A stretch of 64,000 nt of DNA. Origin: Bacteroidia bacterium. GTDB lineage: Bacteria; Bacteroidota; Bacteroidia; B-17B0; Aurantibacillaceae. The stretch lies in contig JALHRL010000003.1 in the NCBI GenBank assembly GCA_022841465.1, positions 1 to 64,000 of the forward strand, given 5' to 3'. This document shows positions 53,776 to 61,580 of the stretch, piece after piece. Both the position numbers and the translations under genes were made by a program. Position 1 is the first letter of the stretch. The number at the start of each line of letters is the position of its first letter. The notes below the pieces were generated by a model. It saw nothing but the letters and a program-made list of their open reading frames with translations. It had not been told where the DNA came from and made no database searches.

Positions 53776-54288
53776 CTACTCTTTCCCTAACAACTTCTCT
53801 TGTATGTTTGAATCAGGCGGTCTTTTAAACATCCAGATTCCAAAAAATGCTTTCTTAAAATCTAAACCCGGAATTATCATATGAAACACGCCGTTTTTGT
53901 AAATACTGGTTCCTTTTAATGGATGATAAATAAAATCAAACACATCGCCTTTTTTAAAATTATTGTCGAAAATGGTTTTGAACTGAACAATTCTATCTGC
54001 AATTGGAGCCGTATTTCCTTCTGTTGCGCGTACAAATCCATCGTCCATTGATGCATACATTCGTTCGCTTGTAATTAAGTGTGATAAAACGCAAAGCTTT
54101 AATGCCATTGGCTCATCGGCATTCATAATTTTATGAGCGTCTGAACATTTTACTTTTAAATACAAGCCTAACGCAAATAAATCTATAAAATATTTTTCCC
54201 TTACCCCTGCTCCATTTAAAAGTAAAGTTGTTTCTTCTGACTTAATAGTGTACGGAATTTTTATTCCGCCCACTTTGTGTTGAGCCAT
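53776..54288 (-). CDS. Chalcone isomerase-family protein
   Basis: LLLNGAGVREKYFIDLFALGLYL, FKKAFFGIWMFKRPPDSNIQEKLLG. Confidence 0.8.
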   Translation of the reverse strand: MAQHKVGGIKIPYTIKSEETTLLLNGAGVREKYFIDLFALGLYLKVKCSDAHKIMNADEPMALKLCVLSHLITSERMYASMDDGFVRATEGNTAPIADRIVQFKTIFDNNFKKGDVFDFIYHPLKGTSIYKNGVFHMIIPGLDFKKAFFGIWMFKRPPDSNIQEKLLGKE

Positions 54289-54372
54289 TAAATGAAGGGT
54301 GTTTGTTAAAACAAATATGAGTATGTATTTTTTGATATGTAAATTTAATTAAGTTTTAGGCCTATTACCAAA

Positions 54373-54469
54373 ACGTCATCTATCCCGACGGGATCTCCCT
54401 CCTACGATAAATGTAGGAGTTTAATCCATCTGCATTATAGGCGTATGCCTATGATGCAGACGTCATCTA
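54373..54469 (-). repeat. 87-bp insert plus 10-bp direct repeat (TAGATGACGT) at the 3' end of SpoIIE gene 1
   Basis: ACGTCATCTA (plus) at 54373-54382 and 54460-54469; downstream copy reads IDDVLVIGLKLN*. Confidence 0.7.
54428..54461. repeat. Near-perfect palindrome spanning the last codons and stop of SpoIIE gene 1
   Basis: ATCTGCATTATAGGC-gtat-GCCTATGATGCAGAC. Confidence 0.85.
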
Positions 54470-56288
54470 CCTGTTCTAAATCACCTTTCCAAATTTCGAA
54501 TTCCTTTTTTAATAATTCACCTTGTGTAGCAAGTGAATTTGCATTAATATTCATTAAAAACTGGTTTAATTGTTTATACATGTATTTCTTTCCCTTTGGC
54601 CCTCCAAACTGATCTGCAAAACCATCGGTATACAAATACAAGGTATCTTTTTTATCCATATTTAATTTATACAATTGAAACGAATCTAATTTTTCTGCTT
54701 GCCCTACCGGCATTTTATCAAATTCCAATTCAGCAAAATTGTTTCCGCTCACTAAAATTGGCGAATTGTTTGCCGCTGCATATACTATTTCATTTGTTAA
54801 TTGATTAATGCAAACCAAAATGCCATCAAATCCATCTTTTTGTCCTTCTTTGCTTATATTATCTATTAATCTTTGTCTAACAAAATTAAAAACCTCGTTG
54901 GGCTTTACTATACCTTTTTCGTTTATAGCTTCGTTTAAAAATGTAATATTCAGTAAACTCATAAATGCTCCGGGCACACCATGCCCGGTACTATCACAAA
55001 CAGCAAAATAAAATAAATTATTTTTTTTAGTGGCCCAGTAAAAATCGCCACTAACAATATCTTTGGGATTAAAATAAACAAAATGCTGGGGTACATTTTT
55101 GCTTAAAAAATCTTGGTGAGCCAATAAAGTATATTGAATGCGTTTTGCATACGTTATACTATCTTGAATGTCTTTGTTTTTTTGTTCAATTTCTTCGTAG
55201 GCCTTTTTAAGTTCAATGTTTCTAAGCCTTTCAATTTCTTCTTCCTTTTCTTTTAATAATTTACTTTCTGATTGAGAAATTTTCGCTTCCTTTTCTTGCA
55301 GTACAAGCTTAACATTTAACTCCACCAATTTTTCATAAATTTCAATGGTCTTTTCAAAGTTTTTTAATTCTTTAAAAATAATTACCTGTTGCTTGTATAT
55401 AAACGCTAAGCGATTTAAATGATTGGTTTCATTTGCGTATACAATAGCTTGTTCATAATAATCATTCGCCAGGTCAAAATCCTTATATGCTAAATATAAA
55501 TTGGCAATATCAATTAAACTACCCAATACAAAATGTTTTAGATTAGCTTTTTTTCGATAGTCAAGGGCTTCTAAAAAATGTTGTAAAGCAAGTTCTTTAT
55601 TTCCAAGTTTAGAATAAATTAAACCTATATCATTTAACGCTCTGCTAATACCAATAGCATTGTTCGCTTTTTTTAATATTTCTAAACTTTTAAGTGATAA
55701 ATCTAAGGCTTCGTTTAATTTCCCCTGATCGGAATATATATTTGCTAAGGATGTAAATAACCTGCCACTCCAACTACTATAATTTGTTTCAACTTCAATT
55801 CCTTTTTTGTAATAGAAAGTTGCTTGATCAAACTTATTTAAATCTTTGTAAATCGTTCCAATAACGTAGTATGCCATTGGAATATCATCATCATTGGGGT
55901 TTTTATCATAAAATTCCATCCCCTTTAATCCATCATATAGAGCTGTTTCCGGGGCACCGGTTGAATTAACCATAATGGCCTTGGTTAATAATGTATTGGA
56001 AACCCACTTTTCATCATTAAGTTCATCAAACAAAGTTTTTGCCTTACTCATTAATTCTAAGGCCAATTCAATATTATTCTGAAGAATAAAGGCTCCCATT
56101 CCTTTATTTAATATGCCTCGTGCAACACCAAATTTATAGCCAATTGCTTCTGCTTTTTCAATTAACCCAACCATTAATGCTTCGGGATTATAATCAGGGG
56201 TTGGAGAATTACGATAATTCCAAATAAGCTCATTTACAGAATCTACTTCCTGTTTAATTTGCTCAATTTCAGAATTGGAATAGCTCAT
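54435..56288 (-). CDS. TPR-repeat SpoIIE-family PP2C phosphatase
   Basis: TPR repeats then PKDIVSGDFYWATKKNNLFYFAVCDSTGHGVPGAFMS...TDGFADQFGGPKGKKYMYKQLNQFL. Confidence 0.93.
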   Translation of the reverse strand: MSYSNSEIEQIKQEVDSVNELIWNYRNSPTPDYNPEALMVGLIEKAEAIGYKFGVARGILNKGMGAFILQNNIELALELMSKAKTLFDELNDEKWVSNTLLTKAIMVNSTGAPETALYDGLKGMEFYDKNPNDDDIPMAYYVIGTIYKDLNKFDQATFYYKKGIEVETNYSSWSGRLFTSLANIYSDQGKLNEALDLSLKSLEILKKANNAIGISRALNDIGLIYSKLGNKELALQHFLEALDYRKKANLKHFVLGSLIDIANLYLAYKDFDLANDYYEQAIVYANETNHLNRLAFIYKQQVIIFKELKNFEKTIEIYEKLVELNVKLVLQEKEAKISQSESKLLKEKEEEIERLRNIELKKAYEEIEQKNKDIQDSITYAKRIQYTLLAHQDFLSKNVPQHFVYFNPKDIVSGDFYWATKKNNLFYFAVCDSTGHGVPGAFMSLLNITFLNEAINEKGIVKPNEVFNFVRQRLIDNISKEGQKDGFDGILVCINQLTNEIVYAAANNSPILVSGNNFAELEFDKMPVGQAEKLDSFQLYKLNMDKKDTLYLYTDGFADQFGGPKGKKYMYKQLNQFLMNINANSLATQGELLKKEFEIWKGDLEQVDDVCIIGIRL

Positions 56289-56447
56289 AAAAAATATGAC
56301 ACGTAATTAACTCTTAAATATAACCAAGAAAAAAGAATTTACAAGGGAAAACAAGCAATTCTGTTGCTTTTTACTTATAATAAAGCTATTAAATTACTTT
56401 AGAGTGAATTTATTAGGGCGCCCATCGTTTAGTAAATGGATAATGTA

Positions 56448-56649
56448 GGGATTTCCTCCGTATGCATTATAGGCGAATGCCTATGTAAAAGAACTCATCT
56501 ATCCCGACGACTCATTCTTCGTGTCGGGATTTCCTCCGTATGCATTATAGGCGAATGCCTATGTAAAAGAACTCATCTATCCCGACGACTCATTCTTCGT
56601 GTCGGGATTTCCTCCGTATGCATTATAGGCGAATGCCTATAATGCATAC
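56448..56649. repeat. Tandem array (2.6 copies, 78-bp period) containing copies of the SpoIIE gene 2 3' end and a GTCGGGAT hairpin
   Basis: GGGATTTCCTCCGTATGCATTATAGGCGAATGCCTAT... starts at 56448, 56526, 56604. Confidence 0.95.
56616..56649. repeat. Perfect 15-bp-stem palindrome spanning last codons and stop of SpoIIE gene 2
   Basis: GTATGCATTATAGGC-gaat-GCCTATAATGCATAC. Confidence 0.95.
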
Positions 56650-59600
56650 GTCGTCAACCTGTTCTAATTCACCACGCCAAATTTCAAAAGTAGTTTGAAG
56701 TTTCGTTCGTTGTTCTTCTAATGATAATGTGCTTAATTCTAACAACAATTGATTCAATTTTTTATACATAAACTTTTTCCCTTTGGGTCCTCCAAACTGG
56801 TCGGCGTAACCATCGGTATATAAATAAAGAATATCGTTTGTTTTAAATTCAATTGTAAACAAATTAAAAGGCAATTTCTTCTCGCCCATACCCACCGGCA
56901 TCCTGTCTTTGTTTTGCTCTATTATTACAAAATCTCTAACTAACAAAGGTTCGTTATTGGCAGCAGCATATGTTATTTTGTTTTCTGAATAATCTATACA
57001 AATTAAAATTCCGTCAAATCCATCTTTTTGTCCTTCTTTACTAATGTTTTCTATTAACCGTTCTCTTACATAATCAAAAACTTCATTTGGCTTTTCAATG
57101 TTTTTTTCTTTAATAGCTTCGTTTAAGAAACCAATACTTAACAAACTCATAAAAGCTCCGGGCACGCCGTGTCCTGTACTGTCGCAAACGGCCAAATAAA
57201 ATTTATTATTAATTGTAGTTGACCAATAAAAATCGCCGCTAACGATATCTTTCGGGTTAAAAAATATAAAATGATGTGGAATATATTTTCTTAAAAAATC
57301 ATCATGAGACAATAATGCATACTGAATTCGTTTTGCATAATTAATACTATCTACAATTTCTTTTTGTTTTTCTTCTATTAATGTTTTTTGGTTGTTTATT
57401 TCCTGTGTTCGTTCTGTTACTGTTTTTTCTAAAATAACTTGTCTCTCTAATAACTGCTTGTTTCTTAGTTTAAAAATGTAAACAATAAGCCCAATAATAG
57501 AAGTTAAAGTAAGAATTCTAAACCACCAGGTGGCCCAAAAAGGAGGTTTAACAATAAAACGGTAGGTAAAACTTTCTCCCCAATCTAGTCCTTCTAACTT
57601 TGCTTGTGCTGTAAATTCATATTTACCAGGGCTTAAATTAGCGTATTTGACTTCGGGTAATTTTCCTACTATCCAATTATCATCAAATCCTTCTAATTTG
57701 TATCGATAATTTAATTTTTGAGTTACTTGACCATCACATCCATAAAAATAAAAAGTAATGGTATTTCTATCATAGGGTAATTGCAAATTTAAAGGGTAAT
57801 TAAAAAACGGAGCAACACCGGTGTAATTAACATCATTAAAACTAATTGTACTATCTGAATTATAAAACGTTAATCCTTTTGCAACAGAATCTAGGAGCGA
57901 ATGAAAACTAAAATGTTCATCCATTAAACTAATATGTGATAAAAATGTTCTAGGCGACTTTTTTGAGACATTAAATTCATTCAGGTTTAAATAAATTGCC
58001 CCTTTATTAGTACCCCACCATAAAATATTTTTTAATTTATCATAAGCTACAGCCCCCGATCTAAATGAATTTGTTTTTAATCCATCTTGTAAGTTATAAT
58101 TTTCAATCAAATATCCTTTCGGTTTAGTTTTACTAGGTATTAAGCAATTCAATCCTTTAAAAGTTCCGGCCCAAATGCGCTTATTGTTATCTTCAACAAG
58201 ATTTAAAATAACATTAGAACTTAAGCCATCTTTCACATCCATTAAGGTAAATTCTTTTCCGTTGTAAATGGCTAATCCTTTATTTGTTCCTATCCAGATT
58301 TTATTTTCTGAATCAACAAAAACAGAATGAACTACGTTTGAAGGCAATCCATTAGATGTAGTAAAATGTGTGATTTTATTTTCAGAAATTTTACTTATAC
58401 CATTTCCGTTATATGCCAGCCAAATATCATTGCTATTATCAACAGCAATGCAAGAAACATTGTTTGAACTTAAACCATTTTTTACAAAGTATTTTTCAAA
58501 ATAATTGTAACCATACTTTGTTAATCCATTTCCATTAAAATCGGCTAGCCAAACGTTTTTGTTTAAATCCATTTTACCGGAAGCAACAAATCTATTCTCA
58601 AAAGATTTAATAATTGACAGGTGTAAAAGAGAATCGTAACTTACAGAATCGGATGGTGAAACTTTTAGCATTTCAAAGCCATGCATGTGTGTGCCAACAA
58701 ATAAATTACCAATACTATCTTCTTGCATGGAAAGAATTATCTTCCAGTCAAGGCCGTTTCCACTTACAATTTGTTTAATTTTTTTTCCATTAAACACATG
58801 TATGCCCCCACCCCAACTTCCAAATAATGTTTCTCCTTTTTTGTTAACGTAAATACTTTGTATTGGTTTATCTGATAAGCCATCAAGTGAAGACAATAAT
58901 TTAAAACTACCCGGAACAATTTTATTTAAGCCACCGTCTACGGTAGCAACCCAAACATTGCCTGCACGATCTTCAATAATATCTGAAATTTTATTACTGG
59001 TTAAACCTTGTTTTGTGGTGTATAATTTAAAACCATTATCTTCTAACTTTGCAATGCCACCTTCACCAGTGCCAATCCAATAACTATTTTTACTATCTCC
59101 TAAAATTGCAGAAATTTGAAAATAAGGAAAACCTGTATTGGGTTTATAGCGTATAGATTTATCGTTTTGTAACTTAACAAAACCTCCGCTGTATGTACCC
59201 AATAATAAGTTGTTGTTTTTATCATTATAAATATTGGTAACCAAACCCGAACCAAATTGCAGCCAATCTTGCCAATGGTAACGGTGAATAATGGTATCAT
59301 TTATTATTTTCGACATGTTTCTATCCCAGGTGCCAATAAAGATTTCATTTGCTTTGTTAGATCCTAAGCGGTATAAGTTTCCTAACTCTAAAGGAGAATC
59401 GCTTCCGTAAATAAAAAATTTCCCGTCTTTTAATTTTACCAAACCGGTTTCCTGACAAATTAACCACAAACAGTTTTGTTTATCAAAATGAATGTCTAAA
59501 ATAGAATTTCCGGGTAAACCACTTTCGGTTGTGTAAACTAAAAAACGTTTTCCATCATAATTCCATAAACCATTTGTGGTAGACATCCATATACTGCTAT

Positions 59601-60195
59601 CTTTTGGATCGAGTAATAGTTTATTTGGCATTCCGGTAATTCCATTACGTGCGCTATAGTTATAAATATTATATCCATCGTAGCGTGTTAAGCCTGTTGA
59701 AGTTCCAATCCATAAAAAGCCTTTATTATCTTCTAATAAACAGTTAACTTGTGAAGAGGGTAAACCTTGTTCTTCTCCCAAATAAGTTATATTTTCGTTA
59801 GCAATACCGGTAGAGCGCAAATCACCTGCCTTAATTGGTTTTGGATGTTGCACCGGTGACAAAAATGGTTTTGCGATTACAACTTTTGGTGAATAGTAAA
59901 AACTATCGTATTTGCTTTTGTAACGTATTGTATCTATCACTCCAAAAGGTACTTTATCTTGATTGGCAAATGGCACTTCTTTATAGGTGAGTTTAAAACG
60001 CCAGCCTTTAGGAATTAAAAGGGTATCAAACTGAGTTGATGTTAAGTCAAACGCTTTATTTACAACAATAGAATCGGCATGTGTTTTTTTTGGAATAATA
60101 GATGAAATTAAAGGGATATTGCTCTGTTTACGAGTCTTTTCTTTACACGAAATAAAAGCAAACAATACAAATGTTATTAAAAACCTATAAAACAC
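56623..60195 (-). CDS. Two-component-regulator-propeller/Y_Y_Y sensor fused to SpoIIE PP2C phosphatase
   Basis: Lipoprotein-like N-terminus; repeated LLEDNKGFLWIGTSTGLTRYDG propeller units; LPYDRNTITFYFYGCD...YRYKLEGFDDNWIVG (Y_Y_Y); TM; SpoIIE domain. Confidence 0.93.
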   Translation of the reverse strand: MFYRFLITFVLFAFISCKEKTRKQSNIPLISSIIPKKTHADSIVVNKAFDLTSTQFDTLLIPKGWRFKLTYKEVPFANQDKVPFGVIDTIRYKSKYDSFYYSPKVVIAKPFLSPVQHPKPIKAGDLRSTGIANENITYLGEEQGLPSSQVNCLLEDNKGFLWIGTSTGLTRYDGYNIYNYSARNGITGMPNKLLLDPKDSSIWMSTTNGLWNYDGKRFLVYTTESGLPGNSILDIHFDKQNCLWLICQETGLVKLKDGKFFIYGSDSPLELGNLYRLGSNKANEIFIGTWDRNMSKIINDTIIHRYHWQDWLQFGSGLVTNIYNDKNNNLLLGTYSGGFVKLQNDKSIRYKPNTGFPYFQISAILGDSKNSYWIGTGEGGIAKLEDNGFKLYTTKQGLTSNKISDIIEDRAGNVWVATVDGGLNKIVPGSFKLLSSLDGLSDKPIQSIYVNKKGETLFGSWGGGIHVFNGKKIKQIVSGNGLDWKIILSMQEDSIGNLFVGTHMHGFEMLKVSPSDSVSYDSLLHLSIIKSFENRFVASGKMDLNKNVWLADFNGNGLTKYGYNYFEKYFVKNGLSSNNVSCIAVDNSNDIWLAYNGNGISKISENKITHFTTSNGLPSNVVHSVFVDSENKIWIGTNKGLAIYNGKEFTLMDVKDGLSSNVILNLVEDNNKRIWAGTFKGLNCLIPSKTKPKGYLIENYNLQDGLKTNSFRSGAVAYDKLKNILWWGTNKGAIYLNLNEFNVSKKSPRTFLSHISLMDEHFSFHSLLDSVAKGLTFYNSDSTISFNDVNYTGVAPFFNYPLNLQLPYDRNTITFYFYGCDGQVTQKLNYRYKLEGFDDNWIVGKLPEVKYANLSPGKYEFTAQAKLEGLDWGESFTYRFIVKPPFWATWWFRILTLTSIIGLIVYIFKLRNKQLLERQVILEKTVTERTQEINNQKTLIEEKQKEIVDSINYAKRIQYALLSHDDFLRKYIPHHFIFFNPKDIVSGDFYWSTTINNKFYLAVCDSTGHGVPGAFMSLLSIGFLNEAIKEKNIEKPNEVFDYVRERLIENISKEGQKDGFDGILICIDYSENKITYAAANNEPLLVRDFVIIEQNKDRMPVGMGEKKLPFNLFTIEFKTNDILYLYTDGYADQFGGPKGKKFMYKKLNQLLLELSTLSLEEQRTKLQTTFEIWRGELEQVDDVCIIGIRL

Positions 60196-61230: not shown

Positions 61231-61371
61231 TAAAGATTTGGAAGAAGTTAACTTCTAACTTCAACGTTCTAAATTCTACCTTCTAAAAAGTTCTGTGGCC
61301 GCCTACCTACGCTAAAGCTACGGCAGGTAAAAGTGGCAGGCTGAGCAAGAAAAGCTCAGAAAAAAAAATAA
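61231..61371 (+). pseudogene. tRNA-Cys relic 1: duplicated 5' flank plus 5' half with hairpin insert in D-arm
   Basis: TAAAGATTTGGAA...TTCTACCTTCTAAAA flank as in intact copy; AGTTCTGTGGCCG[CCTACCTACGCTAAAGCTACGGCAGGTAAA]AGTGGCAGGCTGAGC...GCTCAG. Confidence 0.75.
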
Positions 61372-61382
61372 CAAACAAAAAA

Positions 61383-61434
61383 GGTCCTGTGCCCTTCCAC
61401 ACATGGAAGGGTAGGCTGAGCAAGCAAAAGCTCA
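61383..61434 (+). pseudogene. tRNA-Cys relic 2: 5' half with a different hairpin replacing the D-arm
   Basis: GGTCCTGTG-CCCTTCCA-caca-TGGAAGGG-TAGGCTGAGCAAGCAAAAGCTC. Confidence 0.75.
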
Positions 61435-61493
61435 TTAAAAAATTAAAAGGTAAAGATTTGGAATAAGTTTATTCTAACTTCTACCTTCTAAAA

Positions 61494-61564
61494 GGTCCTG
61501 TGGCCGAGTGGCTAGGCTGAGCTCTGCAAAAGCTCCTACAGCGGTTCGAATCCGCTCGGGACCT
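61494..61564 (+). tRNA. tRNA-Cys (GCA)
   Basis: GGTCCTG/CGGGACC acceptor, GAGCT-CTGCAAA-AGCTC anticodon arm, AGCGG-TTCGAAT-CCGCT T-arm, U73; CCA not encoded. Confidence 0.93.
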
Positions 61565-61580
61565 CGATAAATGAAGAAAA

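Follow-up and report, generated by a model that had tools for sequence, protein, structure and literature searches.

SpoIIE-type phosphatase genes in the 64,000 nt stretch of DNA analysed here (the window), and in related genomes, are probably re-ended at the codons of their metal-binding DD(V) motif by a palindromic mini-unit specific to this gene family, with the older gene end displaced downstream; this reading is given a probability of about 0.6. It draws on the architecture of the unit, its confinement to SpoIIE genes, the existence of empty sites, tandem stacking, covariation between an inverted arm and the codons it copies, and a synonymous bias in the displaced end, all of which are evident in the sequences compared. 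The blocks have the form X1-U-X2, where X represents the last ~10 codons of the gene, about 30 bp, and U is a segment of about 40 bp comprised of an inverted copy of the X codons and a REP-like hairpin, always in one orientation.

Two ends at SpoIIE gene 1

The original prediction concerned a minus strand gene, termed gene 1, at the end of which TAGATGACGT is found at 54469-54460 and again at 54382-54373, a spacing of exactly 87 bp. The gene terminates with VDDVCIIGIRL and a stop codon, and continuing past the second copy in the same phase reads IDDVLVIGLKLN and a further stop. Folding as single-stranded DNA gives a z score of -4.6. The features of the locus are as follows:

54435-56288, minus strand: SpoIIE gene 1 (TPR and SpoIIE phosphatase PF07228, 617 aa), with its stop inside the unit (ORF, translation, Pfam)
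54435-54470, minus strand: X1 of gene 1, the codons for VDDVCIIGIRL and the stop, supplied by the unit (sequence and end comparison)
54428-54461, minus strand: hairpin 1, its 5' arm in the codons, the stop within it and its 3' arm (an inverted copy of the codons) after the stop (fold and covariation)
54399-54419, minus strand: hairpin 2, CTCCTACATTTATCGTAGGAG (sequence and fold)
54382-54394, minus strand: hairpin 3, ATCCCGTCGGGAT (sequence)
54345-54383, minus strand: X2 of gene 1, the displaced and probably native end, IDDVLVIGLKLN and a stop (sequence and orthologues)

The repeat, its spacing, both C-termini and hairpins 1 and 2, including the one spanning the stop, are as originally described; hairpin 3 was absent from that description, and is probably a relic of the CCCGAC..GTCGGG hairpin of other type-A units. 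The suggestion that the second copy is an alternative or ancestral end agrees with the orthologues, most of which have a native end resembling the displaced LVIGLKLN. Similarly, the proposed alignment with relatives identified empty sites, the unit being absent from the gene 1 orthologues in six genomes of the same genus. The shared codon phase of the two copies is genuine at gene 1 but coincidental, as the X-X period at other loci, for the most part 65-78 nt, does not stay a multiple of three; read-through of the X1 stop into X2 was rejected on the same grounds. Within this genome, the CIIGIRL of X1 is the exact end of six of 10 unit-bearing SpoIIE genes and of none of the 33 unit-free ones, and X1 of gene 1 was most likely brought by the unit from a paralogue. 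A 10 bp direct repeat is by itself weak proof, and it is the recurrence of the palindrome at SpoIIE gene ends that raises the gene 1 case above chance.

Units across the genome

The 22 nt palindrome is present in four copies in the window, without mismatches and on the strand of gene 1, against an expectation of 0.00. The genome-wide search that had been proposed found eight copies with ≤2 mismatches in the 3.77 Mb genome (G000), all eight (8/8) at the ends of SpoIIE genes, five in number; a reversed-pattern control found none. The original prediction was to be abandoned if relatives had no empty site and the palindrome occurred nowhere outside SpoIIE genes: the latter is the case in this genome and the former is not, and since empty sites exist the two do not occur jointly. 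The strictness with which the palindrome keeps to SpoIIE genes is in itself the principal feature.

There are 43 matches to PF07228 in G000, all the ends of which were read; about ten have an X-U-X unit and the rest end plainly. By this end reading, the unit-bearing genes are those at C3 (genes 1 and 2), C8, C9 (degenerate), C12, C18 (twice), C19, C32 and C33. The 43 SpoIIE-domain genes, some arranged in tandem clusters (for example, C19:67-74 kb), constitute a large phosphatase signalling family.

The general order of elements is X1 (..GAYGATGTTTGCGTAATTGG..stop), the inverted arm (..ACGCAAAC..), a connector, the hairpin and X2. Type A combines the connector ..ACGGAGGA with a CCCGAC..GTCGGG hairpin, and type B combines TTTGCAAAGTCACGAT with a GAGAC..GTCTC hairpin; the two are sometimes found in series. 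GGAG lies 5' of the type-A hairpin, with GAGTCAG or GTCACGAT in other types. Within G000, paralogues can have X1 and the connector in common when their X2 differ. The second SpoIIE gene of the window harbours a block of the gene 1 kind as a 78 bp tandem in which the end appears three times:

56623-60195, minus strand: SpoIIE gene 2 (Reg_prop, Y_Y_Y and SpoIIE) (ORF, translation, Pfam)
56623-56658, minus strand: X1 of gene 2, VDDVCIIGIRL and stop (sequence)
56581-56622, minus strand: U of gene 2, comprising inverted arm TGCATACG, GGAGGAA connector and CCCGAC..GTCGGG hairpin (sequence and fold)
56545-56580, minus strand: X2 of gene 2, IDEFFYIGIRL and stop, copy two of the 78 bp tandem (sequence)
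56467-56502, minus strand: X3 of gene 2, copy three of the 78 bp tandem (sequence)

Mixed arrays are also found: that of C19 consists of B, A and the old end, and that of C33 of B, A and a B-like unit. The final X is usually without arm and hairpin, on which basis plain tandem duplication was rejected. Similarly, a simple 10 bp target site duplication was rejected because X1 and X2 use different synonymous codons for DD at many loci, and CRISPR-like integration, considered on anatomy only (an X of about 30 bp, a U of about 40 bp and a duplicated repeat), because U is always an arm and a hairpin in a single orientation.

Confinement to SpoIIE genes

Genome-wide statements derive from pattern and model searches combined with unbiased scans of 0.4-0.46 Mb. 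These scans, blind to SpoIIE, took in 457 kb of G000 (488 ORF ends) and 400 kb of G006 (422 ORF ends), and found convincing 3'-end duplications only at SpoIIE genes, two in the former and five in the latter, where the stretches were picked to contain known SpoIIE loci and the result therefore speaks to specificity, not frequency. The remaining entries of both represent chance in A+T-rich sequence. Five of the eight close exact direct repeats in the 400 kb of G006 fall in X-U-X blocks, the other three being one Ala-rich coding repeat, and the type-B hairpin was not found outside SpoIIE genes in the 457 kb of G000. The CCCGAC..GTCGGG hairpin of type A is also repeated as an ordinary intergenic palindrome in G000 (C17:56921, 57738 and 80724; L042-L044, L172).

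The palindrome is present in 13 of 199 genomes, inspected matches being SpoIIE ends apart from a few isolated ones without coding context (G010, G098, G175). Among 87 genomes of the order, a covariance model of type B (R1) has 35 matches in eight genomes, and one of type A and the REP types (R2) has matches in 45. Together these amount to well over 100 matches in relatives, and every inspected locus with a readable upstream frame is a SpoIIE C-terminus; the automatic C-terminus filter returned no verdict for L179 and L207, which represent one gene region. Some of the weak R2 matches are SpoIIE ends in which no second copy can be seen (for example, L200-L205 and L261-L264), which is to be expected given that the codons form part of the model. 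At the level of the class, families f16, f20, f25, f31 and f34 carry the block, each with its own hairpins, and a pattern scan of GTDB genomes found four contigs, all with SpoIIE ends of uncultured Bacteroidota. Carriage by phages or plasmids was rejected, as viral contigs contained no exact typical unit and the gene 2 array had no plasmid match. Rfam gave no credible match in 54200-56900.

The inverted arm tracks the codons of its own gene

The longest perfect stem between arm and codons averages 6.47 for a gene's own arm, as opposed to 4.98 (sd 0.11) for arms exchanged among genes; with the exchange confined to the same genome the values are 6.66 and 5.50, and none of 2000 swaps was as good. 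Where X1 and X2 differ in the paired stretch, X1 is the better partner for the arm in 29 cases and X2 in six, with eight equal, and compensatory changes are found in the alignments, one pair, for instance, being seen as UA, AU, GC and CG. Hence the arm tracks the codons of its own gene, and pairs with X1 rather than X2. This agreement can be yielded either by selection on the hairpin or by template switching, which creates and corrects the inverted arms of quasipalindromes (PMC8794818). At L235, L240, L241, L243, L245 and L253, the palindrome within U is longer (AGTTTATCCTGAGC..GCTCAAGATAAACT then GTCGAAGGA), and the short hairpin that is commonly found appears to derive from it by internal deletion.

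A coding-like displaced end

Among the codons that differ between X1 and X2 in 74 pairs, 152 are synonymous and 70 nonsynonymous; the counts are not independent, the pairs being mutually related and retrieved with models themselves derived from such units. At random, 24% would be synonymous, and an estimated ~39% were only X1 constrained. The 295 differences are distributed 69:33:193 over codon positions 1, 2 and 3. Some pairs have four to six synonymous codon differences and no others, with gene-specific sequence in common (CLIGVKV in L233, CIIGLKL in L197). This bias indicates that for much of its existence X2 has been selected at the protein level. It fits a native end moved downstream, an end that returns to use each time the unit disappears, or a combination of these, although it could in part be a memory of the coding past or reflect copying from X1. 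Between orthologues that share a unit, X2 still looks constrained at the gcvP locus, with 23 synonymous and eight nonsynonymous differences in six non-independent pairs, and comparisons elsewhere are few and mixed; continued constraint on X2 is therefore no more than suggestive. At the recent loci L185 and L104 of G021, and L217 and L238 of G006, X1 and X2 are identical; this fits duplication in place better than the arrival of a foreign X1, and so counts against the preferred reading.

Probable gain and loss before gcvP

The SpoIIE gene before gcvP, which has conserved flanks, carries the unit in G019, G026, G006 and G007 and has a clean single end in G021, G034, G012 and G037. The units have in common a locus-specific TTACCC-type hairpin ending in GAAGGG (decayed in G026), which suggests a single old gain followed by precise losses; the single end of G021 has the GGC codon of the G006 X2 together with the native flank. 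Parsimony requires at least three changes on the tree of the locus, two of them forced by well-supported branches. The gene tree conflicts with the similarity of the intergenic flanks, such that what look like losses could instead reflect alleles being exchanged or units being gained independently, but precise loss rather than independent gain appears the better account.

Origin and maintenance of the units

The original prediction offered two readings, either a palindromic element inserted at the DDV codons that supplied a new in-frame C-terminus, or a local duplication followed by divergence. The former suits gene 1 well, given a recurrent unit, an in-frame end with a stop and empty orthologues, except that there is no fixed element, only the combination of X, inverted arm and REP-like hairpin. 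Under the preferred reading, a unit consists of X1 (the last ~10 codons and the stop), an inverted arm complementary to those codons and a REP-like hairpin. As it opens with the complete set of C-terminal codons, X1 completes the protein and the old end moves downstream; at many loci other than gene 1, X appears to have arisen on the spot by duplication of the resident end. The ~30 bp X1/X2 repeats around the hairpin would allow both tandem stacking and precise loss of the unit, which would make X2, or part of it, the gene end again, and X2 likely evolves like coding sequence for this reason. The unit would spread through homology between gene ends, by copying between paralogues or alleles, and the arm may be kept up by template-switch correction, selection or both. 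A stronger version, regarded as improbable, is that X1-U-X2 is a live, reversible gene-end switch, gained and precisely lost often enough for selection to keep both ends, through a site-specific and possibly enzyme-driven exchange of tails.

Movement of a palindrome into SpoIIE ends by a RAYT/Y1 transposase, with X a mere target duplication, would account for the REP-like hairpins of U, for the GGAG-type motif 5' of some of them and for the dispersal of the same hairpin, which includes sites behind tRNA-Asn with a second tRNA 3' end. It is unlikely in that the inverted arm is gene-specific and derived from the target rather than from a fixed element, and in that the dispersed hairpin has just two to five exact copies per genome in five genomes, 11 of the 16 in SpoIIE ends, whereas classical REPs exceed 100 copies per genome and are mostly intergenic. 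Furthermore, Y1_Tnp (PF01797) has no match in G006 despite 12 model hits there, and its counts do not follow unit-hit numbers across the genus, so this transposase was rejected as the driver; known IS200/IS605 enzymes also produce no larger target duplications (PMC2817692). It is similarly doubtful that the blocks reflect purely local mutation, in which hairpin-stimulated template switching and tandem duplication of a gene end beside an existing REP were followed by divergence, with no movement between genes. The suggestion of local duplication retains force at many loci in relatives, where X1 and X2 are identical or have gene-specific residues in common, and template switching is known to generate and correct such arms. 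By contrast, a simple tandem duplication would not leave the final X devoid of arm and hairpin, nor would it give paralogues in G000 the same X1 and connector with different X2; the roughly 900 ORF ends scanned in G000 and G006 also yielded no such event outside SpoIIE genes.

Integrase-like site-specific recombination, with X as an att site and an [X-U] minicircle integrating and excising in Campbell fashion as at tRNA 3' ends, is very unlikely: it would account for a 3' end rebuilt by the arriving copy, for arrays both tandem and mixed, for precisely empty sites and for the tRNA-Asn case, but the spacing of hairpin 1 is too variable for a fixed core site, and 30 bp direct repeats can be deleted without any recombinase. 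The covariation of the stop-spanning hairpin and its association with one gene family might also indicate a conserved regulatory RNA in the 3' UTR of SpoIIE mRNAs, the second end representing decay or chance. The unit is, however, found in only about 10 of 43 paralogues and is patchy among orthologues, the U hairpins vary freely between lineages and lack an Rfam match, and X2 is coding-like rather than random, leaving this the remotest of the explanations.

Relationship to known repeats

REPs and REPINs are short palindromes often found directly behind coding regions, at times overlapping the stop codon (PMC3733652). Hairpins of this type are present in U, but the SpoIIE units differ from the GTAG- or CGTC-tagged palindromes associated with RAYTs in being confined to one gene family, duplicating the gene end, having a target-derived inverted arm, being few in number and having no Y1 link. 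Neither a high copy number nor, in G006, a cognate Y1 transposase was found, and because these two defining features are lacking the SpoIIE units are classed here as palindromic mini-elements outside the REP/RAYT family. Rickettsia palindromic elements (RPE) likewise place palindromic DNA within coding regions while keeping the reading frame. RPEs occupy many unrelated genes and add an internal peptide, whereas the SpoIIE units replace the C-terminus of one family, leaving the old end behind, and of the roughly 900 ORF ends scanned across two genomes they occurred only at those of SpoIIE genes. Integrative elements at the 3' ends of tRNA and other genes carry an attB/attP identity segment, by which an arriving element rebuilds the 3' end and displaces the resident one. 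The SpoIIE units are alike in that X1/X2 direct repeats restore the gene end and empty orthologues exist; they differ in being 65-90 bp and non-coding except for X. Quasipalindrome or template-switch mutation would account for the origin and upkeep of complementary inverted arms, but is a mutational process rather than an element, and leaves the confinement to SpoIIE genes and the common hairpins unexplained. In the literature consulted, coverage of which was incomplete, work on REPs, RPEs and template switching was found, and no description of SpoIIE-specific palindromes.

The usual view of bacterial mini-palindromes is that they are debris between genes. In several families of Bacteroidota, they are found here strictly at the catalytic 3' end of genes from a single expanded family of signalling phosphatases, where they carry or duplicate the codons they would otherwise destroy and leave a second end evolving as coding sequence. 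The units thereby provide a natural system for testing how palindromes pass from one paralogue to another, how inverted arms follow coding DNA, and whether selection can keep a sequence behind a stop codon through frequent loss of the preceding unit.

Palindromes at tRNA genes

Just 3' of tRNA-Asn in three species (L268, L269 and L272, in G026, G007 and G019, respectively), there is a REP hairpin, TTTATCCTGAGC..GTCGAAGG. Ahead of the hairpin lies part of the tRNA 3' end in inverted form, and after it a second, variably decayed 3' end, most clearly at L268, representing an X-U-X arrangement at a tRNA gene, and the process generating the units may thus not be wholly limited to SpoIIE genes. Within the window, at 61273-61565, two broken copies of the 5' half of tRNA-Cys lie ahead of the tRNA-Cys gene itself (61494-61565), and each is split by a palindromic insert (for instance, CCCTTCCacacatGGAAGGG).
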